DNA from: Occultella gossypii
GTDB taxonomy: Bacteria; Actinomycetota; Actinomycetes; Actinomycetales; Beutenbergiaceae
Assembly: GCF_019947135.1 (NCBI RefSeq)
Contig: NZ_JAGSHT010000007.1
Location: 62,001-126,000, forward strand
Length of the DNA: 64,000 bases
Direction of reading: 5' to 3'
A model generated the notes under the pieces. The model was not told the origin of the DNA. It worked only from the letters and a program-made list of their open reading frames with translations, and made no database searches. Position numbers and translations under genes: made by a program. Below are positions 3,679-15,822 of the stretch, piece by piece. Position 1 is the first letter of the stretch; every line of letters starts with the position of its first letter.

Positions 3679-4083
3679 TCAGAGTCGGCGAACCTGAACG
3701 CCCACGGCGTCATAGGTGCTCGAGGCACGTCGATCGAGGCTCACCAGCCGTAGTCCGTGTTCGGCCGCCGTCGCCGCCACCACACCGTCGTACACCGCAC
3801 CACCCTTGACTCCGCGGGACGCGAGCTCCGCGACCAAGGACTGATGCCGTTCGGGTGCGAGGCCCACGATCGGGAACGGCAACGCCCCGAGGAGCTCACT
3901 CGCGCTGCGCGCGCTGAGACGGTGCGGCGCCGGCAGTCTGGTCAACACGCTGTAGGCCTCGACGATCACGTGAGCCGGCACGGCGACGATCTCCGACAGC
4001 GCGGCTCGCGCCGGTGTGTGGAACTCATGCCACCGCAGCACCGCCGGCACGAGGACACTGGTATCGCACGTCTCGCCGCCCAC
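3679..4083 (-). CDS. VapC-like PIN-domain toxin
   Basis: A 134-residue PIN-domain ribonuclease. The acidic metal-binding residues are in place: TCDTSVLVPAV (Asp near residue 7), HVIVEAYSVLTRL (Glu), GAVYDGVVAATA (Asp) and LVSLDRRA (last Asp). VapC toxins cut tRNA or rRNA and are silenced by a cognate antitoxin. The start codon is GTG at 4083, three bases after the antitoxin stop, so the two genes are translationally linked. Length and organisation match a standard VapBC pair. Confidence 0.88.
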   Translation of the reverse strand: MGGETCDTSVLVPAVLRWHEFHTPARAALSEIVAVPAHVIVEAYSVLTRLPAPHRLSARSASELLGALPFPIVGLAPERHQSLVAELASRGVKGGAVYDGVVAATAAEHGLRLVSLDRRASSTYDAVGVQVRRL

Positions 4084-4086
4084 TGC

Positions 4087-4332
4087 CTACCGCCGGGCTT
4101 CTTCGAGTGTCGCCCGGACGGTCTCGACTGTGAGCGCAGGCAGGTCATCGGCGGGGACAGCGATCGGAAGCCCATCGACGCGCTCCACCTCGACGTCGGT
4201 GGCGATCACCTCGATCTCGAGGCGACCATCCGCGTAGATGATCTCGATCGCGCGCCCCGGCGCAAGATCCATCGCATCCCGCAGTGCCTTCGGGACGACA
4301 ATCCTGCCGGCTGAATCAATGGTCGTTCTCAT
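4087..4332 (-). CDS. AbrB/MazE-type antitoxin (VapB-like)
   Basis: An 81-residue protein with an N-terminal SpoVT-AbrB swapped-hairpin domain: TTIDSAGRIVVPKALRDAM, then APGRAIEIIYADGRLEIE. The acidic C-terminal tail (EVERVDGLPI ... LTVETVRATLEEARR) is the usual toxin-binding part. It is predicted to bind and repress its own promoter and to neutralise the PIN-domain toxin encoded three bases downstream. A promoter with a TAGATT box lies 6 bases upstream of its ATG, so it is probably leaderless. Confidence 0.88.
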   Translation of the reverse strand: MRTTIDSAGRIVVPKALRDAMDLAPGRAIEIIYADGRLEIEVIATDVEVERVDGLPIAVPADDLPALTVETVRATLEEARR

Positions 4333-4400: not shown

Positions 4401-5246
4401 CTACCGGCTCTCGCCGCGAACCGCGACGCCGGCCCTGGTCTCGACGCCGGACCCGAACGCGGCGCGCCGGGCCGCCCGACGCAGCGTGGCCAGCACCGGA
4501 TACCCGGCGACCGCGATCCCCACGGCTGTGGTGATCGCCCGTCCCAGGTCCCAGGGCAGGGAGGTGGCCAGGCTGTAGAGCAGGAACCGGTGCAGGTTCT
4601 CCCCCATCGGGGCGCCCGCCACGAACGAGATCTCGGTGCCGCTGCCGATCAGGAACGGCCAGAACGAGAGGTTCAGCGCCGTCCCGAACAGTACGGCGGC
4701 CAGGGCTCCGTACCCGGCCAGGAGCGCGATCTCCCATCGGCCCCGGAGCCGGCCCGGCAGCAGCCCGGCGCCCAGCCCCACCCACGAGGCCGCCAGCATC
4801 TGGAACGGCAGCCACGGTCCCACGCCGCCGGTCAGCAGGGCCGAGGCGAAGATCGTGGTGGAGCCGAGCAGGAAGCCGAACCCGGGGCCGAACACCCGCC
4901 CGCCGAGCACGACGAGGATGAACACGGTCTCGACCCCGCCGGTGCCCGCCGCGAGCGGACGCAGGATGGCTCCGACGGCGCTGAGGAGCCCGAGCACCGC
5001 GATCGCCTTCACGTCCAGGCCGCCGTCGTTGACCCCCACCAAGAGCACCGCGAGCCCGGCGGCCACCACCAGGGCGAGTACCACGGGGGCGGAGGTGGCA
5101 TCGTCGAGCGTGGCGCCGGCATCGACCAGCAGCGGCCAACCGAACGCCAGCACCCCGAGCGCGGAGGCGAGCGCGAGCGTGAGGCCCAACCGGCGCCCGA
5201 TCGGGACCGCGGTCACGTCGGCGCCGGGGCCGGCATCCCGCCTCAT
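4401..5246 (-). CDS. ECF transporter S component (cobalamin-specific, CbrT-like)
   Basis: A 281-residue integral membrane protein with about six hydrophobic segments, including GLTLALASALGVLAFGWP, VVLALVVAAGLAVLLVGV and a glycine-rich FGPGFGFLLGS loop. It is the substrate-binding S component of an energy-coupling-factor importer and the last gene of the four-gene operon. Its ATG overlaps the EcfA stop as ATGA. By sequence alone the substrate is open, but the cobalamin riboswitch upstream and the divergent cobalamin adenosyltransferase make vitamin B12 or a precursor the likely cargo. Confidence 0.82.
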   Translation of the reverse strand: MRRDAGPGADVTAVPIGRRLGLTLALASALGVLAFGWPLLVDAGATLDDATSAPVVLALVVAAGLAVLLVGVNDGGLDVKAIAVLGLLSAVGAILRPLAAGTGGVETVFILVVLGGRVFGPGFGFLLGSTTIFASALLTGGVGPWLPFQMLAASWVGLGAGLLPGRLRGRWEIALLAGYGALAAVLFGTALNLSFWPFLIGSGTEISFVAGAPMGENLHRFLLYSLATSLPWDLGRAITTAVGIAVAGYPVLATLRRAARRAAFGSGVETRAGVAVRGESR

Positions 5247-6907
5247 GGCGGTCCCTCGGCGGCCGCGCCCGCGGCCAGCGCCTCGCGCACGTCCGCGACC
5301 GTGAGCACGCCGACCGGGGCGAGGATCTTGGCGACCTGCGGGGCGAACGTGGGCGAGTCCCGCAGGACCTCTTCGGCCGGAGCGTCGGCGACCACCTCCC
5401 CCTCGGCGAGCAGCACCACCCGACCGGCCACCCGCGCCACGAACTCGACGTCATGGCTGGCCACGAGGATCGTGTGCCCGCCGGCGCGCAACTCACCGAG
5501 TGCCGCGACCAGGTGAGCCTTCGCGGTGTAGTCCAGGCCGCGGGTCGGTTCGTCCAGCAGCAGCACCCGTGGCGTCGCCGCCAGCTGGACGGCGACCGCG
5601 AGGGCGAGCCGCTGCCCCTCGGAGAGATCACGCGGGTGCCGTGCGGCGTCGATGCCCGGTGTCAGCGAGTCGAGGATCGAGGCAGTGGTCCCGGCCGCGG
5701 CCGTGGCCTGCTCATCGGCGGCGGCGCACTCGGCCGCCACGGTGGGCAGGTAGAGCAGGTCCGATGGTGCTTGCGGCACCAGGGCCACCTCGCGGCGCGC
5801 CACCGCGGGGATGAGGTCCGCCGGGTCGGTGCCATCGGCCAGGGTCGCGGTGCCACCCGACCGCCGACCGCGCCCGGACAGCGCCCAGAGCAGGGAGGAC
5901 TTCCCGGACCCGTTGCGCCCCATCAGGGCCACCACCTCGCCCGCGGGCAGTTCGAGGTCCACACCACGCACGGCGTGTGCGGCGCCGTACCGCACGTGCA
6001 GCCCGCGGGCCGCCAGCAATGCCGCAGAGCCCGACGGCGTCCGGTCGGCCCGGTCATTCGGCGCACCCGTGCGGGTGGTTCCCACCGCCGCGGCCAGGCC
6101 CGTGCGGACCCGCTCTCGTAGCGGCCCGGCCACCCGACGGGCATCACGCACCGAGAGCGGCAGCGGGTCCCACTGCGCCAACAGACCTAGTTCCACCACC
6201 GGTGGGGCCACAGCCGAGTGCGCGAGAACCGCCGCCGGCGCACCTGCCGTGGCCACGCCGTCGGGCGTCAACGAGATGACCGAATCGGCGAACTGGACCA
6301 CGCGTTCGAGCCGGTGCTCGGCGAGCAGCACGGTGATGCCGGAGTCGTGGACCAGCCGGGTGAGCGCGGCGAGCACGTCCTCCGCGGCGCCCGGATCGAG
6401 CGCGGAGGTGGGTTCGTCCAGGACCAGGATCCGCGGCTGGGCGGTGAGCACCGCAGCGATCGCGACGCGTTGCTGCTCCCCGCCGGAGAGGTCCGCGAGG
6501 GCGCGGCCGCGCAGCGGTGCCAGGCCGAGCAGGTCGAGCACCTCCTCCACGCGTTTGCGCATCAGCGCCGGGGCCACCCCGAGCTGCTCCATCGCGAACG
6601 CGAGCTCCTCCTCCACCGAATCGGTCACGAACGAGGCGAGCGGGTCCTGACCCACCACCCCCAGCACGTCCGCCAGATCGCGGGGCAGGTGGTCGCGGGT
6701 GTCCCGGCCGGCCACCAGCACGGTGCCGGAGAGCAGACCGCCACTGAAATGCGGCACTCGGGCACAGGCCGCCCCGAGCACCGTGGACTTGCCCGATCCC
6801 GTGGGCCCCACGACCAGGCACAGCTCGCCCTCGCCCACGGTGAAGCTGGCCGCACGCAACGCCGGCGTGCCGTCGTAGCTGACGGAGACGTCCTGGAATT
6901 CGATCAT
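5243..6907 (-). CDS. ecfA: ECF transporter ATPase, two fused nucleotide-binding domains (EcfA-A')
   Basis: A 554-residue protein with two ABC ATPase domains. Domain 1 has Walker A GPTGSGKST near residue 35, signature LSGGEQQR and Walker B LDEPTSALD. Domain 2 has Walker A GRNGSGKSS, a less canonical signature LSEGQRLALA and Walker B LDEPTRGLD. This fusion replaces the EcfA/EcfA' pair of group II or dedicated ECF importers and powers the membrane unit made by EcfT and the S component. The start at 6907 (MIEFQDVSVSYDG) overlaps the EcfT stop as ATGA; the open frame continues upstream to 7102 only as antisense-like sequence. Confidence 0.92.
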   Translation of the reverse strand: MIEFQDVSVSYDGTPALRAASFTVGEGELCLVVGPTGSGKSTVLGAACARVPHFSGGLLSGTVLVAGRDTRDHLPRDLADVLGVVGQDPLASFVTDSVEEELAFAMEQLGVAPALMRKRVEEVLDLLGLAPLRGRALADLSGGEQQRVAIAAVLTAQPRILVLDEPTSALDPGAAEDVLAALTRLVHDSGITVLLAEHRLERVVQFADSVISLTPDGVATAGAPAAVLAHSAVAPPVVELGLLAQWDPLPLSVRDARRVAGPLRERVRTGLAAAVGTTRTGAPNDRADRTPSGSAALLAARGLHVRYGAAHAVRGVDLELPAGEVVALMGRNGSGKSSLLWALSGRGRRSGGTATLADGTDPADLIPAVARREVALVPQAPSDLLYLPTVAAECAAADEQATAAAGTTASILDSLTPGIDAARHPRDLSEGQRLALAVAVQLAATPRVLLLDEPTRGLDYTAKAHLVAALGELRAGGHTILVASHDVEFVARVAGRVVLLAEGEVVADAPAEEVLRDSPTFAPQVAKILAPVGVLTVADVREALAAGAAAEGPP

Positions 6908-8025
6908 CGGGTGCTCCGCCCGGGTAGCACGGCCGGGAGCGCGGCGGCGCCGGCCGCGATCACGCCGCTCAGTGGCAGCGTGGGCCAGGTCAGCGGGCTC
7001 AGCGACGCCGAGACCGAGTCGGGTTCGAGGGCGGCTCCGAGACCGATCGCCGCGGCCACCGCCACCCCACAGGCGGCAACGAGGTTCTCCGGTAACCCCC
7101 ACGGGTCGGGCCGGTAGCGCGTCCGGCGCACCTGCCGTCCGGCCAGCACGGAGGCCACCACGGCGACCGCAGCGCCTGCCGCCAGCAGCGGCGGGCCGAG
7201 CCAGTCCGGCGCGGTGCCATCGAGCAGGCCGTAGGTGCCGATCAGCCCGGCCAGGAGCGCCACCAGCAGCAGCGCCCCGACCCGGCGGTCACCGCCGGGC
7301 CGGTGGCCACGGGCGTAACCGCGGGAGTCCATCGAGGCGGCGAGGGCGAGCGCCTGATCGAGGGCGTCCTGCAGCACCGGGATGAGCCGGCCGGCGAACG
7401 CGCGCGGCCCGCGCCCGTCCAGGCCGCGCAACAGCTGCGCCCGGCGCACCCGGGCGGCGGCGGAGAACAGCTGTGGGGTCACACTCACCGCGATCACGAC
7501 GGCGGTGCCGAGGTGATGCAGGGACGCCGGCAGGCAGCGCAGGGCCCGCTTCGGGTTGGCCAGCGCGTTCGCGGCGCCGAACGTGATGATCAGGGCGGCC
7601 AGGCGCAGGCCGGCGTAGACCGCACCGAGCAGCCCGGCGGCGTGCACCGGACCGAGCAGCTCGATGCTGTCCACCCAGCCGGGCAGCGGGATCCGGGGCA
7701 GGTCGACCAGCACGGGGCTGCCATCGGGCAGCCCGACGAGAACGTAGAAGGCCACCCGCACGGCGATCACCACCAGGCCGAGCCACAGGTAGGCACCGAA
7801 CGCGCGGGCCCACGGTGAGTCGTCCCGCCGGGTCACCACGACCAGGGTCACGGCGGCGAGCAGCAGGGCGATGACCAGCGGATTCTGGGTGCGGGTCAGC
7901 GCCACCGCGATACCCGCACCCCACGCCCACCAGGCCAGAGGGTGCAGGGACACCCGGTCCGTCCGCTCGGTCACGGGCGGGCCCGGGACCGGCGGTGGAC
8001 CGGGACTGCGCTGGAAGGTGGTCAT
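6904..8025 (-). CDS. ecfT: ECF transporter transmembrane component EcfT
   Basis: A 373-residue EcfT with a proline-rich N-terminus, hydrophobic segments at the start (LAWWAWGAGIAVALTRTQNPL) and a long cytoplasmic helical region. The two coupling motifs that dock the ATPases are visible: ARVRRAQLLRG and SMDSRGYARG. Two or more extra C-terminal membrane segments are present. It sits 13 bases after the secreted protein gene and overlaps ecfA, so the operon is tightly coupled. EcfT is the scaffold that transmits ATPase motion to the S component. Confidence 0.92.
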   Translation of the reverse strand: MTTFQRSPGPPPVPGPPVTERTDRVSLHPLAWWAWGAGIAVALTRTQNPLVIALLLAAVTLVVVTRRDDSPWARAFGAYLWLGLVVIAVRVAFYVLVGLPDGSPVLVDLPRIPLPGWVDSIELLGPVHAAGLLGAVYAGLRLAALIITFGAANALANPKRALRCLPASLHHLGTAVVIAVSVTPQLFSAAARVRRAQLLRGLDGRGPRAFAGRLIPVLQDALDQALALAASMDSRGYARGHRPGGDRRVGALLLVALLAGLIGTYGLLDGTAPDWLGPPLLAAGAAVAVVASVLAGRQVRRTRYRPDPWGLPENLVAACGVAVAAAIGLGAALEPDSVSASLSPLTWPTLPLSGVIAAGAAALPAVLPGRSTR

Positions 8026-8038
8026 GGCCGGTCGGCGC

Positions 8039-8698
8039 TCAGTCCTCCCGCTGGGCCGTGCGGCGGCGAGCCACCAGGACGGCCGCCAGGCCGACGACGA
8101 CGACCCCGGCGAGCCCGGCGATCACCCCGACGGGGGCACCGGAGCCCTGCTCGGTCTCGGCGTCGGTCGTGGACTCGGCCGGCTCTGCCGATCCGTCCAT
8201 GGTCTCGCCAGCACCCTCGGCACCCGCAGCCACGTCGGCGGCGGTCACGGTGGGCCCGGCGCTGCCGTCGAAGTAGCGCCAGCCCTCGTAGCTGCCGACG
8301 ACCGGGTCCGCCAGGTCCGCGCCGACCGTGGAGCTGACCCACTCGGCCCCCGGCTCCGCCGTCCAATAGGACCAGAAGCTGCCCTCGAACACCGTGGGGC
8401 ATGGGTCCGGTTGGGCGTTGACGGCACAGATCAGGCCGGCGCTGTCCTCCGCGAGGGTGAATCCGGCCAGTTCCAGCGCCTCCCGGCCCGACGCCGGGTC
8501 ACCCTCGGCGCAGCCGACCTCGACCGCACCGCCGACGTCGGTGAAGTCGACCACGACGGTGACGCCGTCGTCCGCGGTCAGGCAGCCGCCCGTGGGGGCC
8601 TGGCCGGCTTCCGCGCTCGCGGCGGTCGGCAACAGGGTGAGCAGGCCGAGTGCGATCGCGGCCGCGCAGCCGGTCGTGGAGATCTTGGGGTGTCTCAT
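8039..8698 (-). CDS. Secreted tail-anchored protein of ECF/B12 operon (SCO2322-like, DUF4430-like arrangement)
   Basis: A 219-residue protein, first gene after the cobalamin riboswitch. It has a Sec signal peptide (cleavage near TAASA/EAG), an extracellular domain of about 110 residues, a Ser/Thr/Glu-rich linker and a C-terminal membrane helix followed by RRR. The extracellular domain carries GVTVVVDFTD, REALELAGF, a Cys pair (LICAV ... PCPTV), FWSYW and SYEGWRY. This order resembles the SCO2322-type proteins found with ECF operons in Streptomyces. It also recalls DUF4430, which corresponds to the C-terminal domain of human transcobalamin. I infer a surface capture protein for cobalamin; neither fold nor ligand is shown here. 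Confidence 0.6.
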   Translation of the reverse strand: MRHPKISTTGCAAAIALGLLTLLPTAASAEAGQAPTGGCLTADDGVTVVVDFTDVGGAVEVGCAEGDPASGREALELAGFTLAEDSAGLICAVNAQPDPCPTVFEGSFWSYWTAEPGAEWVSSTVGADLADPVVGSYEGWRYFDGSAGPTVTAADVAAGAEGAGETMDGSAEPAESTTDAETEQGSGAPVGVIAGLAGVVVVGLAAVLVARRRTAQRED

Positions 8699-8820
8699 GG
8701 TGGAGCCTTCCGGGAGGGTGCCCGCGGGGTGGGCCCGCTCCCCCGGGTCCCGGGCATGAGCGCGCGGGATGAGGACTCGGGCTCCTCCCGCAGTCCACGA
8801 CGGGTCGAGCCTTCGATCCC

Positions 8821-8945
8821 GAGCAGGTGATCCGGCTCGTCGCCCGCATCGGTGCTGCGGGCGACCCACGGTTGCGGGACAGCGCCGGTTTCGGACCGGC
8901 TTCCCCTGATCTCGGGTCGACTGATTGTGTTGGCTGGAGTCTACG
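8821..8945 (-). promoter_or_regulatory. Cobalamin riboswitch
   Basis: The minus strand upstream of the secreted-protein gene carries the B12-box core. In order: GGGGAAGCCGG, loop TCCGAAA, CCGGCGCTG, TCCCGCAACCGTG, a GC-rich hairpin arm (GTCGCCCGC/GCGGGCGAC) and the 3' closing segment GAGCCGGATCACCTGCTC. These match the conserved GGGAA / CCGG-TGCGAAT-CCGG / CTGnCCCGCAACTGT / ACCTGC pattern of the RF00174 class. The 5' limit is uncertain; a TAGACT box at 8943-8938 could start the RNA near 8931. About 120 bases between aptamer and ATG would hold the expression platform. High cobalamin is expected to switch off the importer operon. Confidence 0.85.
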
Positions 8946-8996
8946 GCCGCGTGGCGACAACCGTGCGCGGGTGTGGCGGCGGTGTCATGCTGGGGC

Positions 8997-9545
8997 ATGG
9001 CCAGCATCTCGACCGGCACCGGGGACGACGGCACCACCGGACTGTTCCTCGGTGGCCGGGTGTCCAAGCGGGACGCCCAGGTGGAGGCCGGCGGCGACCT
9101 CGACGAGACCATCGCCGTGCTCGGGGTCGCTCGAGCCTGCTGCCACGACACCGAACTCGCCGCACTCGTGCTGCGGTTGCAGCGCGAACTCTTCGTCTGC
9201 GGCGCCGACCTGTCCACGAATCCGTTCCACCGGGACCGGCTCGAACCGGGAGTCTCCCTGGTGACGTCGGAGATGGTGACCGCCTTGGAGACCCTCATGG
9301 ACGATCTCCTCGAGCAGCGCCCGCTACGACCGGTGTTCATCGTGCCGGGCTCGAATCAGGTCAGCGCGGCCCTCGATCACGCCCGCACTGTGGCACGCCG
9401 GGCGGAGCGGCACGTGGTGGCCGCGCGCGCGTCGGGCGTCGAGGTGAACCACCAGCTGTCCACGTATCTGAACCGGTTCTCGGACCTGCTCTTCGTCCTG
9501 GCCCGGCACGCCGGCGGCGAGGACGAGCCGGCCAGCCACGACTGA
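8997..9545 (+). CDS. pduO: PduO-type ATP:cob(I)alamin adenosyltransferase
   Basis: A 182-residue homologue of the PduO-type adenosyltransferase that makes adenosylcobalamin from cob(I)alamin and ATP. The ATP-binding N-terminus is plain: TGTGDDGTTGLFLGGRVSK, then DLDETIAVLG. The later motifs FIVPGSNQVSAALDHARTV, ARRAERHVV and YLNRFSDLLFVLAR follow in the expected order. ATG 8997 is chosen because the protein then begins just before the ATP motif. It diverges from the riboswitch-controlled importer, so uptake and coenzyme formation sit together. The usual EAYGTVDE motif reads EAGGDLDE, a mild variation. Confidence 0.9.
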   Translation: MASISTGTGDDGTTGLFLGGRVSKRDAQVEAGGDLDETIAVLGVARACCHDTELAALVLRLQRELFVCGADLSTNPFHRDRLEPGVSLVTSEMVTALETLMDDLLEQRPLRPVFIVPGSNQVSAALDHARTVARRAERHVVAARASGVEVNHQLSTYLNRFSDLLFVLARHAGGEDEPASHD

Positions 9546-11871: not shown

Positions 11872-12876
11872 TCAGCGGGTGCTGAACGCGGCGTCGAACG
11901 CAGCCTCGGGCGCGTCGAACGCGAACTTCTTCACGAACTCGAGGGCCTCCGGGGCGCCCACCAGACGGTCCATCCCGGCGTCCTCCCACTCCACCGAGAT
12001 CGGTCCGTCGTAGCCGATGTGGTTGAGGGCCCGGAAGGCGTCCTCCCATGGCACGTCGCCGTGCCCGGTCGAGACGAAGTCCCAGCCACGGCGGGGGTCC
12101 GACCAGGGCAGGTGCGAGGACAGCCGGCCGTTACGCCCGTTCGTCATGCGCAGCTTCGTGTCCTTGCAGTCCACGTGGTAGATCCGGTCCGCGAAGTCGA
12201 CGAGGAAGGAGACGGGGTCGATCTGCTGCCAGACCATGTGGCTCGGGTCCCAGTTCAGACCGAACGCGTCCCGGTGGCCGATGGCCTCGAGGGTGCGCAC
12301 CGTGGACCAGTAGTCGTACGCGATCTCGCTGGGGTGGACCTCGTGGGCGAACCGGACACCGACCTCGTCGAACACGTCCAGGATCGGGTTCCACCGGTCC
12401 GCGAAGTCCTGGTAGCCGGCCTCGATGATCTCGTCGCGCACCGGCGGGAACATCGCCACGTACTTCCAGATCGCCGAGCCGGTGAACCCGACCACCGTCT
12501 TGACGCCGAGCCGGGCGGCGGCGCGGGCGGTGTTCTTCATCTCCTCGGCGGCCCGTTGCCGGACGCCCTCGGCGTCGCCGTCGCCCCAGATGGAATCGGG
12601 GAGCATCTCACGGTGCCGGATATCGATGGGGTCGTCGCAGACGGCCTGGCCCTTGAGGTGGTTGGAGATTGCCCAGACCTTCAGGTCGTACCGGGCCAGC
12701 AGGTCCAGCTTCTCCTGGACGTAGTCGTCGTCGGTCGCGGCGCGGTTCGGGTCGAGGTGATCGCCCCAACAGGCGATCTCAAGTCCGTCGTAGCCCCACT
12801 CGCTGGCGAGCCGGGCCACCTCCTCGAAGGGGAGGTCCGCCCACTGTCCGGTGAACAGGGTGATCGGTCGTGCCAT
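11872..12876 (-). CDS. Sugar phosphate isomerase/epimerase-like TIM barrel
   Basis: A 334-residue xylose-isomerase-like (AP endonuclease family 2) barrel. Likely metal ligands occur at strand ends: [44 protein letters not shown] and [11 protein letters not shown]. These supply the Glu, Asp and His set typical of IolE/epimerase-type enzymes. It lies 75 bases downstream of the Gfo/Idh/MocA gene and is followed by a strong terminator, so the pair forms an operon. Such pairs oxidise a sugar ring and then isomerise or cleave the keto-sugar. The exact substrate is not visible. Confidence 0.88.
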
Positions 12877-12951
12877 GGGAATTCTGCTCCTCGCTGCGGG
12901 GTTCTCTTCGGTCGGTTCGTGCTGGTCCGTGGTCGGCCAGGTCAGGTCGGG

Positions 12952-14133
12952 TCAGCCGGCGGTCGGGATGTCCAACCAGGTGCTCCCACCCTGGGCGCTC
13001 TCCTCGACTGCGGCAAGGACCCGCTGCACGGCGAGCCCGTCGGCGAAGGACGGTTCGGGCTGCTCGCCGGCGGAGACCGCGGTGACCAGGTCCACGACCT
13101 GATGGGTGAAGGCGTGCTCGTAACCGAGCCCGTGGCCGGCCGGCCACCAGGCGGAGATGAACGGGTGCTCCGGCTCGGTGACGAGGATCCGGCGGTAGCC
13201 GGCGGTGCGCGCGTCCTCGCCGGCGTCGAAGTACTCGAGGACGTTCAGGTCCTCGAGGTCGAACGCGAGGGATCCTGCCGAACCGTTGATCTCGAACCGC
13301 AGTCCGTTCTTGCGGCCCCACGCGAACCGGGTGGCCTCGAACGTCCCGATCGCGCCGCCGGCGAGCCGGGCCAGCCAGATGGCCGCGTCATCGACCGTCA
13401 CCGGCCCGAGCTCGGCTCCCCCGGTGCCGGCCAGGCCGGCGAACTCGGTGGCGACCGGCCGCTCCTTCACGAACGTCTCGGTGAGCCCCACGACGCCGGT
13501 GATCGCCTGGCCCGTCACGAACTGGATCAGGTCGGTGATGTGGGCGCCGATGTCCCCGAGTGCGCCCGACCCCGCCTTGGTCTTGTCCAGGCGCCAGGAC
13601 AGCGGGGCGCTGGAGTCCGCGATCCAGTCCTGGAGATACTGGGCCCGCACCTGCCGGATGGTGCCGAGGCGGCCCTCGGCGATGAGCTGGCGGGCGAGTT
13701 GGACGGCGGGGACCCGGCGGTAGGTGAAGCCCACCATCGCGAGCACACCGTTGGCCCGGGCCGCCTCCGCGGCCGCGGCCATCTGCTCGGCCTCGGCGAC
13801 GGTGTTCGCGAGCGGCTTCTCGCAGAGCACGTGCTTGCCGGCGTCGAGCGCGGCGATCGCGATCTCGGCGTGGGTGTCACCCGGGGTGCACACGTCCACC
13901 AGGTCCACGTCGTCGCGGGTGATCGCAGTGCGCCAGTCCGTCTCGGTGTCCCGCCAGTCCAGCTTCGCCGCCGCCGCGGCCAACGCCTCCGGGTTCCGCC
14001 CACAGATGACCTGCTGGATCGGCGTGAGCGGCAGATCGAAGAAGCGGGGCGCGTTGCGCCACGCCTGCGAATGTGCGGCGCCCATGAAGGCGTACCCGAT
14101 CATCGCGACGTTCAAGGGTGGACTGGCGGTCAT
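12952..14133 (-). CDS. Gfo/Idh/MocA-family sugar dehydrogenase
   Basis: A 393-residue NAD(P)-dependent oxidoreductase. The N-terminal Rossmann strand VAMIGYAFMGAAHSQAW carries a G-x-x-F-M-G dinucleotide motif. It is followed by VDVCTPGDTHAEIA and the family hallmark GKHVLCEKPLA, whose Lys is catalytic. The C-terminal GFO_IDH_MocA domain contains GDIGAHITDLIQFVTG with the substrate His/Asp. ATG 14133 follows AGGAGAG. Gene order is dehydrogenase then isomerase (11872-12876). Upstream lies the damaged tract and the divergent GMC oxidoreductase. The open frame extends upstream into poly-proline/glycine coding that is an artefact of that tract. Confidence 0.92.
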   Translation of the reverse strand: MTASPPLNVAMIGYAFMGAAHSQAWRNAPRFFDLPLTPIQQVICGRNPEALAAAAAKLDWRDTETDWRTAITRDDVDLVDVCTPGDTHAEIAIAALDAGKHVLCEKPLANTVAEAEQMAAAAEAARANGVLAMVGFTYRRVPAVQLARQLIAEGRLGTIRQVRAQYLQDWIADSSAPLSWRLDKTKAGSGALGDIGAHITDLIQFVTGQAITGVVGLTETFVKERPVATEFAGLAGTGGAELGPVTVDDAAIWLARLAGGAIGTFEATRFAWGRKNGLRFEINGSAGSLAFDLEDLNVLEYFDAGEDARTAGYRRILVTEPEHPFISAWWPAGHGLGYEHAFTHQVVDLVTAVSAGEQPEPSFADGLAVQRVLAAVEESAQGGSTWLDIPTAG

Positions 14134-14170
14134 CGAATTCTCTCTCCTCGGTGGTGTTCTCTCATGCGGT

Positions 14171-14306
14171 GGGGGCGGGGGGGGGGGGGGGGGGGGGCCG
14201 CCCCCCCCCCCCCCCCCCCCGGCCCCCCCCCCCCCCCCCCCCACCCCCCCCACCCCCCCCCCGGGGCGCCCGCGGGGGGGGCCCCCCCCGGCGTCCGCGC
14301 GGGCGG
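14171..14306. other. Poly-G then poly-C block, probable sequencing/assembly artefact
   Basis: From 14171 the left flank runs into a nearly pure G tract of about 27 bases. After CCG at 14198-14200 follow about 80 bases of nearly pure C with a few G or A. A short mixed G/C stretch then leads back to normal coding sequence. G extending rightward from the left flank and C extending leftward from the right flank is what two-colour sequencing reads give when signal drops out on both strands. The N-terminal FAD-binding segment of the GMC protein, expected exactly here, is missing. I therefore regard the block as a gap filled with false bases. Confidence 0.8.
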
Positions 14307-14319
14307 GGCGCCGGCCCGC

Positions 14320-15822
14320 CGCAACGCCGAGCTGCGCGGCGATCACCTGCGCGGCAAACGGAACGCCGTGTACTCCCCGACGGTCGGGCCCGGTCCCGGG
14401 TACCCGCGGGAACTGGATACCGCCGCCGGCCCGATCGAGGTCGACGCGGCGACCGACGCCGGCCTGTACGGGCTGAACGCCGACGTCCTCGGTGGCGGCA
14501 CCCGGGTCTGGCAGGGCATGGCGTGGCGGTTCCTGCCGGAGGACTTCCGGATGCGGCAGGTCTACGGCAATCCCGAGGGCGCGAGCCTGGCGGACTGGCC
14601 GGTGGACTACGCCGAGCTGGAGCCCTACTACACGCGGGCCGAGGCCGAGCTGGGCGTCAGTGGCGCCGAGGGCTCACTCACCGCGCGGACGCCGCGCTCG
14701 GGCGGCTACCCGATGCCGGCCATGGGCAGCGAGCCGGCCCGCGAACTCCTCGCCCGGGCGGCGGAGGGCCTCGGGTGGGGCTGGGGTCCGATCCCGCTCG
14801 CCCTGAACAGCGTCCCGCACGCCGGCCGCCCGGCCTGCGTGCGGTGCGCGCAGTGCGTGGGTCACGCCTGTCCTGTCGACGCGAAGAACGGGGCGCACAA
14901 CACGGTCATCCCGCTCGCGCTCGCCACCGGCCGCTGCGACCTGCTCCAGGACGCCGAGGTCATCGAGGTCCGCGACGGGCACGGCGCCGCCGGGGTCACC
15001 GTGATGGTCGGGGCGTCGGGACCAGCGCCGGTCGCACTCGACGTGGCCGCGGACGTGGTGGTGGTCTCCGCGGGCGCGGTGGAGACCCCCCGACTGCTGC
15101 TCGCCTCCGGCCTGGGCAACGACCAGCTCGGCCGGCACCTGCACGACCACCGGTTCGTGAGCATCCTCGGCACCGTCGACGAGCCGGTCAAGCCCTACGT
15201 CGGCCCCGGCCACAGCATCGCCACCCTCGACCACGTGCACGCGGCCACCGTCCCATGGGGTGGCGGCGTCCTCGTGGACCTGATGAGCCTGCTGCCGCTG
15301 ACCTCCGCGGGTTCGCCCGCGCCGGGCGTGCCCGAGTGGGGTGCCGCTCACAAGGAGTGGATGCGGACGGGCAGGGCGCACGTGTTCGGGGTGTTCGGGA
15401 TGGGCCAGGAGATCCCGGTCGCCACGTCCCGGGTCGGCCTGAGCCCCCGGGTCCGGGACCGGTGGGGACGCCCGGGCGCGACCCTGCGCAAGGACGTCCA
15501 CCCGGCCTCGCTGGAGATCGACGACGGCATGGCCCGCGAGGGCGCGACGTGGCTGAGCGCGGCCGGTGCGGCGGGCGTGCGCCGGCTGGTCGGGACCGCG
15601 ACGGCGTCGGCGGCGGGCGAGCACTCGTGCGGCACCGCGCGGATGGGCACCTCGCCGCAGACGTCCGCGACCGATCCCTACGGTCGCCTGCACGGGGCGC
15701 GCCGGGTGGTCGTCTGCGACTCCTCGCTGCACCCCACGAACGGCTCCGTGAACCCGACGCTGACGATCATGGCGAACGCGTTCCGGGTGGCCGAGCATCT
15801 CGTGGCGCACTGGCCGGGCTGA
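14320..15822 (+). CDS. GMC-family FAD oxidoreductase, 5' end lost in artefact
   Basis: About 500 residues remain of a protein usually near 560-570. The N-terminal Rossmann motif GxGxxG is absent because the preceding sequence is the false poly-G/C block. Present are: NADVLGGGTRVWQGMAWRF (flavin-covering segment), a Cys cluster CVRCAQCVGHACPVDAKNG, the FAD-binding VSAGAVETPRLLLASG, and the C-terminal active site HSCGTARMG ... GSVNPTLTIMANAFR. The Cys cluster is typical of the gluconate/glucoside dehydrogenase branch. It diverges from the Gfo/Idh/MocA gene. I infer oxidation of a sugar or glycoside hydroxyl. The true start cannot be given. Confidence 0.85.
   Translation, partial: RNAELRGDHLRGKRNAVYSPTVGPGPGYPRELDTAAGPIEVDAATDAGLYGLNADVLGGGTRVWQGMAWRFLPEDFRMRQVYGNPEGASLADWPVDYAELEPYYTRAEAELGVSGAEGSLTARTPRSGGYPMPAMGSEPARELLARAAEGLGWGWGPIPLALNSVPHAGRPACVRCAQCVGHACPVDAKNGAHNTVIPLALATGRCDLLQDAEVIEVRDGHGAAGVTVMVGASGPAPVALDVAADVVVVSAGAVETPRLLLASGLGNDQLGRHLHDHRFVSILGTVDEPVKPYVGPGHSIATLDHVHAATVPWGGGVLVDLMSLLPLTSAGSPAPGVPEWGAAHKEWMRTGRAHVFGVFGMGQEIPVATSRVGLSPRVRDRWGRPGATLRKDVHPASLEIDDGMAREGATWLSAAGAAGVRRLVGTATASAAGEHSCGTARMGTSPQTSATDPYGRLHGARRVVVCDSSLHPTNGSVNPTLTIMANAFRVAEHLVAHWPG

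Follow-up and report, generated by a model that had tools for sequence, protein, structure and literature searches.

A predicted surface partner resembling the transcobalamin beta domain in a vitamin B12 importer operon of Occultella gossypii

The window analyzed in this work is a stretch of 64,000 nucleotides from the soil actinobacterium Occultella gossypii (contig NZ_JAGSHT010000007.1, positions 62,001 to 126,000). On its minus strand, from position 8698 down to 4401, four tightly packed genes were found in the order P0001, EcfT, double ATPase and S component, with a candidate cobalamin riboswitch in the leader and a divergent gene for a PduO-type adenosyltransferase. The gap between the end of P0001 and EcfT is 13 bases, and overlaps of 4 bases were found at EcfT/EcfA and at EcfA/S. 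The S component shares its operon with EcfT and two ATPase domains, as in importers of the energy-coupling factor (ECF) type that have a module of their own (group I). The assignment of this operon to the import of vitamin B12 is strong, and the predicted function of P0001, the capture of corrinoids at the cell surface, is likely. The features are listed below:

8039..8698, minus strand: P0001, 219 amino acids, predicted to be exported and anchored in the membrane by its C-terminus, transcobalamin-beta-like, a relative in canonical order of the SCO2322 family
8249..8587, minus strand: residues 38-150 of P0001, its beta domain, with four conserved cysteines (predicted local distance difference test, pLDDT, of 93-98 from residue 41 when averaged over ten residues)
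8060..8131, minus strand: hydrophobic segment at the C-terminal end of P0001, with a basic tail after it
6904..8025, minus strand: EcfT, transmembrane coupling subunit (CbiQ, PF02361, 35.2 bits against a cut-off of 25)
5243..6907, minus strand: EcfA-EcfA', two ABC ATPase domains in a single chain (ABC_tran in two stretches)
4401..5246, minus strand: S component, substrate-binding membrane subunit (ECF_trnsprt, PF12822, 43.4 bits against a cut-off of 30.7)
8805..8929, minus strand: candidate cobalamin riboswitch aptamer, RF00174-like, in the operon leader (29.1 bits, E 1.1e-5)
8997..9545, plus strand: PduO-type cob(I)alamin adenosyltransferase, divergent (Cob_adeno_trans, PF01923, 156.7 bits against a cut-off of 24; TIGR00636, 142.1 bits)

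All parts of the operon were confirmed that an earlier note, made from the sequence alone, had described as a secreted tail-anchored protein, EcfT, fused EcfA and an S component with a diverging PduO gene. For EcfA-EcfA', the top NCBIfam matches were ECF ATPase models, all of them below their cut-offs. The S component is predicted to be specific for cobalamin, on grounds that include the co-occurrence of its profile (A6) with the beta protein. The ATG at 8997 is better placed as the PduO start than the TTG at 8925, because, counted along the longer frame, the family match starts at residue 28, which is three codons past that ATG, and because 8925 falls within the riboswitch.

P0001 begins with a hydrophobic segment, and no second copy of it was found in the genome. 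An AlphaFold2 model built from 22 sequences reached a mean pLDDT of 80.6, with 121 of the 219 residues at 90 or above, spanning the beta domain. When this model was compared with the PDB by Foldseek, the first two ranks among the best 50 of 124 matches were rat transcobalamin with cobalamin (probability 0.98, E 0.023) and with glutathionylcobalamin (0.97, E 0.037), followed by two chains of RUMGNA_00854 (probability 0.97 and 0.90; E 0.069 and 0.21); 3u7z is a DUF4430 protein. The fifth match had a probability of only 0.12, and nothing else among these 50 was convincing. Because of this gap after the fourth match, and since the top four are of one kind, a transcobalamin-like fold was adopted for P0001, and the comparison with the transcobalamin beta domain suggested by the earlier note was thereby borne out. 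The predicted model has a beta-grasp fold like that of the C-terminal domain of transcobalamin. Furthermore, the alignment by hhalign of the P0001 profile with 21 DUF4430 sequences covered 70 columns, beginning at the helix and reaching the last strand, with the elements in the same order, and its score of 24.4 exceeded the maximum of 20.5 obtained in 200 column shuffles. The DUF4430 profile was built from 21 of the 32 loci with a DUF4430 match, the omitted ones being frames read in the wrong strand or located at a contig end. The transcobalamin-type SLBB domain has a cobalamin-contacting beta-hairpin insert after the helix; in the P0001 model, the short strands at 82-84 and 90-93 that come after a helix at residues 71-77 are at most a candidate for such an insert. 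The case for kinship between P0001 and the transcobalamin beta domain is good.

The sequence relationship of P0001 to the NCBI family SCO2322 was obscured by a rearrangement. SCO2322_fam (NF040672) reached only 23.1 bits with P0001, against a cut-off of 85, and covered residues 108-143 alone. In P0001 and its nearest relatives the motifs follow the order [VTVVVDF - GREALE - LIC - PDPC] then [FWSYW - EGWRY], while in the SCO2322 proteins they follow the order [YRYWSYW - EGWRF] then [RVAVVID - VL - LICGIDGYP - C]. The P0001-type and SCO2322 profiles (the latter from all 17 SCO2322 sequences, which also served for the cysteine count) matched over 40 columns unrotated (E 1.5e-12) and over 93 columns with the halves swapped (E 6.8e-18). 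The cross-matches between halves gave E-values of 2.5e-6 and 7.3e-15, as against 0.54 and 0.29 for halves in the same position. The weaker cross-match scored 32.3, and the best of 200 column shuffles scored 23.9; an unrelated origin of the second half of SCO2322 was rejected, as the halves match crosswise and not in place, and as none of the 200 shuffles reached the real score. The rotated SCO2322 profile also matched the DUF4430 sequences with a score of 28.4 (shuffles at most 17.8). Four cysteines were found in all 22 canonical sequences, at -6 to -2, 18-23, 45-51 and 54-60 relative to the first strand, and in all 17 permuted ones, at -11, 26-29, 53-62 and 63-72. Judged from these sequences, the SCO2322 family is the P0001-type domain in circularly permuted form, and for this reason SCO2322_fam matches only part of P0001. 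Permuted SCO2322 proteins were also sought in viral contigs and none was found; a plasmid search returned two weak Embleya matches for P0001 and zero for one SCO2322 protein.

Many genes of the SCO2322 type are accompanied by a second one. Across 148 genomes of the class, the family cut-off was exceeded by 48 SCO2322 genes, 30 of which had a gene for an alpha/alpha toroid at most 2 kb upstream on the same strand, as did 15 of 20 weaker places; three of the 18 genes lacking it lie within 500 bases of the contig start on the upstream side (G061, G077, G078). The SCO2321 family (NF053823) matched all three toroids scanned, that of L066 with 586.9 bits (cut-off 300) and those of L075 and L084 under the cut-off. 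Weak SQHop_cyclase/Prenyltrans matches were obtained in five scanned members (L075, L079, L081, L066 and L076) and in none of the others, and the toroid profile matched squalene-hopene cyclases in the PDB (E 1.9e-16) and not transcobalamin. A canonical-order beta protein together with a toroid and ECF genes was found in L063, L151-L157, L159, L160, L163 and L164; therefore, both strand orders go with the toroid. The position of the toroid gene upstream of 30 of the 48 SCO2322 genes suggests that SCO2321 and SCO2322 represent a transcobalamin split over two genes.

Some variants of this arrangement were observed. L158 is a second ECF locus in genome G143, which also has a SCO2322 locus; it carries a canonical-order beta protein, and the toroid, with a DUF4430-like frame, stands after the ECF genes and not before them. 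In L157 (6185-10561), a tandem pair of toroid-beta pairs precedes one ECF module. Two toroids (L078:2335-3891 and L082:2386-3855) end in LPxTG-like sortase signals, as read from the translations.

The beta protein and the importer were found together across the relatives. The beta protein, EcfT, EcfA and the divergent PduO gene were present in all 22 loci of the related set, and EcfS in 20, the other two stretches stopping early. An ECF module was encoded in 33 of the 37 loci around P0001-like or SCO2322-like genes; two of the four misses (L064, a tail-only match, and L065, with no profile match) are weak P0001 matches that were not counted as relatives. The order SCO2322-type gene, EcfT, EcfA, S component, which is a feature of the SCO2322 loci examined rather than NCBI's definition of the family, is also that of the window. 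Additionally, a search of 59 related genomes with the S-component profile gave matches at E 1e-10 or better in 28, and in all 27 that could be tested a beta-like open frame adjoined the S component; the remaining genome, G038, has a contig that starts within EcfA. The earlier note had suggested a survey of co-occurrence with B12 ECF operons; its description of the beta protein as an uncommon extra part is not supported, since every testable genome with the S component has a gene for a beta-like protein next to it. Seven of the 27 genomes have a more distant version of the protein (E 1e-8 to 1e-3, the weakest being L172); in six of them a lipobox-like motif lies ahead of it in the same frame, and in L172 the motif is in another frame. 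A second, broken-looking S-like frame in G018 had no visible partner.

Single frames of 964-1018 codons with EcfT-like, both ATPase and S-component-like domains were observed in L174 (6914-9952, minus strand), L177 (4916-7807, plus strand) and L178 (6833-9886, minus strand). These are apparently single-chain ECF transporters, with a lipoprotein-like beta protein encoded directly upstream. In L140 (5381-6481) and L141 (5617-6830), a DUF4430 lipoprotein-like gene adjoins a gene for a small membrane protein, reminiscent of cbrS-cbrT; judging by the translations, this membrane protein could be an S component.

The leader of the operon contains the conserved core and the paired stems of RF00174. 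In a search limited to 451 bases, positions 8805-8929 scored 2.4 bits short of the Rfam gathering score of 31.5, and an Rfam scan of the whole window gave no match above gathering. The two nearest orthologous leaders exceeded this score (L049, 32.3 bits; L050, 32.5 bits), and in an alignment of nine leaders both-sided changes preserved pairing in four of the 28 predicted pairs, the covariation term being small (-0.4 kcal/mol). Because those two orthologues pass gathering and these four pairs are kept, the match was taken as more than chance and the element as a genuine riboswitch whose score is borderline. The cobalamin riboswitch core read by the earlier note therefore stands on its orthologues and on its pairing, but the window's own score lies below the threshold that the same note had set as its test. 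A cobalamin-class riboswitch, counted as RF00174, RF01482 or RF01689 above gathering, was found in 8 of the 13 same-family loci, in 6 of 13 other relatives, and in 8 of 13 SCO2322 loci plus 4 of 7 additional ones (none in L062 and L063); in the ten loci around more distant S components it was found in L175 only. On the 3' side of the aptamer, the segment CTCGACCCGTCGTGGAC (window 8793-8809, minus strand) is the same in eight of the nine aligned leaders as far as they extend, with one change in L057, and is perhaps part of the expression platform. Riboswitches for c-di-AMP were seen about 5 kb or less from the importer in three relatives (L094:1120-1305, L099:4521-4668 and L101:4455-4602).

CbiC, the sole corrin-ring enzyme searched for, was found in none of the 16 same-family genomes examined, that of O. 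gossypii included, and in 2 of 23 overall. Two B12-binding matches were found in the O. gossypii genome, namely MetH and a protein that also has a MeaB domain. Since CbiC is missing yet B12-binding enzymes are present, the host probably imports B12.

Part of this arrangement has precedents. Secreted transcobalamin-like domains encoded with CbiO/CbiQ-like genes were proposed to scavenge B12 by Burroughs et al. (2007; PMC1796856), who, in the available excerpts, also described toroid fusions and named low-GC Gram-positives, planctomycetes and some euryarchaea as the organisms. P0001 resembles these SLBB/DUF4430 proteins in predicted fold, element order, predicted export and EcfT/EcfA-type neighbors (CbiQ and CbiO in that work), and it differs from the transcobalamin type in being negative for PF14478, actinobacterial, provided with four conserved cysteines and from a lineage in which no toroid was found. 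It shares with the SCO2322 family the first place in the ECF operon, the FWSYW...GWRY half in natural order and the corresponding cysteine spacing, but the two halves stand in the opposite order; the SCO2321 family, the toroid upstream of many SCO2322-type genes, is not in the window. The excerpts of a beta-grasp review (PMC1949818) mention circular permutation in the E1 UFD domain and not in the transcobalamin clade. The cluster nrdJ-cbrS-cbrT-pduO of Lactobacillus delbrueckii, which encodes ECF-CbrT (Santos et al., 2018; PMC5997447), shares ECF-type B12 import, a nearby pduO and an extra gene (cbrS) adjoining the S component, whereas EcfT and EcfA lie within the operon itself in the window; the excerpts of that article give the name of cbrS without a description. 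For Lacticaseibacillus, excerpts of PMC9963975 list an "additional lipoprotein component of putative cobalamin ECF transporter". The same kind of inference, ECF cobalamin import from a module preceded by cobalamin/AdoCbl riboswitches, was made for acI Actinobacteria (PMC5301498), the excerpts of which do not mention a partner protein. In the portions of the literature accessible here (including PMC6593275, PMC4350170, PMC2667541, PMC8914203 and PMC3766115), no account of this system in Actinobacteria was found; subscription journals were largely uncovered, so that this is no proof of novelty. Within the same scope, nothing was found on SCO2322, and only a cell-penetrating peptide study on SCO2320, SCO2321 and SCO2323-SCO2325.

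The best-supported prediction for P0001 is that of a surface corrinoid-capture partner, and the reading as a whole, a riboswitch-controlled ECF importer of B12 with this partner, is considered probable, if by no means secure. The cobalamin riboswitch would lower the expression of the operon once the coenzyme suffices. P0001 would be exported and held by its C-terminal segment at the outer face of the membrane, where its beta domain would most likely take up cobalamin or cobinamide reaching the membrane and present the corrinoid to the S component. Driven by EcfT and the double ATPase, the S component would next release the corrinoid into the cell, and PduO would turn it into adenosylcobalamin. 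In many other Actinobacteria, the SCO2321-family toroid and the beta protein may hold the corrinoid between them in the manner of the two transcobalamin domains; in the lineage of the window, for which no toroid was found, the beta domain would work on its own. For the class as a whole, there is about an even chance that the B12 ECF importers of Actinobacteria rely on a two-piece surface transcobalamin (SCO2321 as toroid, SCO2322 as beta piece), the beta piece existing in two circularly permuted orders and the lineage of the window being a minimal, toroid-free form with direct delivery to the S component.

Several results weigh against this interpretation. PF14478 (DUF4430) did not match P0001 at E-values up to 1, nor was it found elsewhere in the genome; the PF14478 search proposed by the earlier note was negative in this respect. 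The E-values of the top four Foldseek matches are modest (0.02-0.21), and the hhalign probability of the comparison with canonical DUF4430 was only 22%. A Pfam scan of P0001 gave no credible domain, and searches of PDB sequences with P0001 and with its alignment gave no match. The likeness to DUF4430 and to the C-terminal domain of transcobalamin is therefore upheld by the predicted fold and, weakly, by the profile comparison, but not by PF14478, and SCO2322_fam gives a partial match. Sequence searches with the S component gave no solved relative of significance, and its model was poor (mean pLDDT 67), with uninformative Foldseek results and no link to CbrT. ECF-CbrT is not known to require an extracellular partner for transport. 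A search of the O. gossypii genome with PF13243 gave no toroid, and the custom profile A4 gave none there or in 23 same-family relatives, so that half of a transcobalamin-type site would be missing in this lineage. Two loci (L079 and L081) have a toroid-SCO2322 pair and no ECF genes in the stretch examined. Once again on the negative side, none of the seven more distant loci, in which the partner is lipoprotein-like or short, had a riboswitch above gathering, and therefore their ligand could differ.

Some of these points bear on other explanations. P0001 might bind no ligand and serve as an accessory subunit, either a lid or an assembly factor, which would attach to the S component from outside and open or stabilize it, somewhat as CbiN assists CbiM in cobalt transport. 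The co-occurrence in 27 of 27 testable genomes, the failure to find a toroid in this lineage and a C-terminal segment that would keep P0001 beside the transporter fit such a role, but the predicted fold is similar to that of a domain known to bind corrinoids, and the gene adjoins a toroid gene elsewhere, mirroring the two domains of transcobalamin; this explanation is regarded as unlikely, though worth keeping in view. The import of another substrate, cobalt or a non-corrinoid molecule, for which P0001 would be specific, is very improbable. EcfT does match CbiQ, a family named for cobalt transport, the S component lacks a significant solved relative by sequence, and the seven loci with more distant partners lack the riboswitch; nevertheless, CbiC was not found in the genome and cobalt would therefore not be needed for corrin synthesis, PduO adjoins in 22 of 22 relatives, and many of these operons are preceded by cobalamin-class riboswitches. 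Equally improbable is that P0001 and the toroid are surface proteins outside transport, for instance a corrinoid store placed in the operon for co-regulation only, as might be read from L079 and L081 and from the LPxTG-like ends of two toroids, given the ECF module in 33 of 37 loci.

Elsewhere in the window, two small genes downstream of the operon (3679-4332, minus strand) resemble an AbrB-type antitoxin and a PIN-domain toxin, as read from their translations. A plus-strand open frame at 12019-15822 contains a glycine/proline homopolymer-like stretch at which two unrelated reading frames seem to be joined, possibly as a sequencing or assembly artefact.

ECF importers have been described as needing only the S component for substrate binding, and a partner encoded next to the S component in each testable genome of the present sample would alter this picture for B12 in Actinobacteria, those of the Streptomyces type included. 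The capture function proposed for P0001 and its relatives would assign a function to two NCBI families, SCO2321 and SCO2322, named only after Streptomyces coelicolor genes, and the circular permutation would explain why a profile search sees half of the link between SCO2322 and P0001. Finally, the system would offer a bacterial split form in which the function of transcobalamin and the origin of the animal B12 carriers could be studied.

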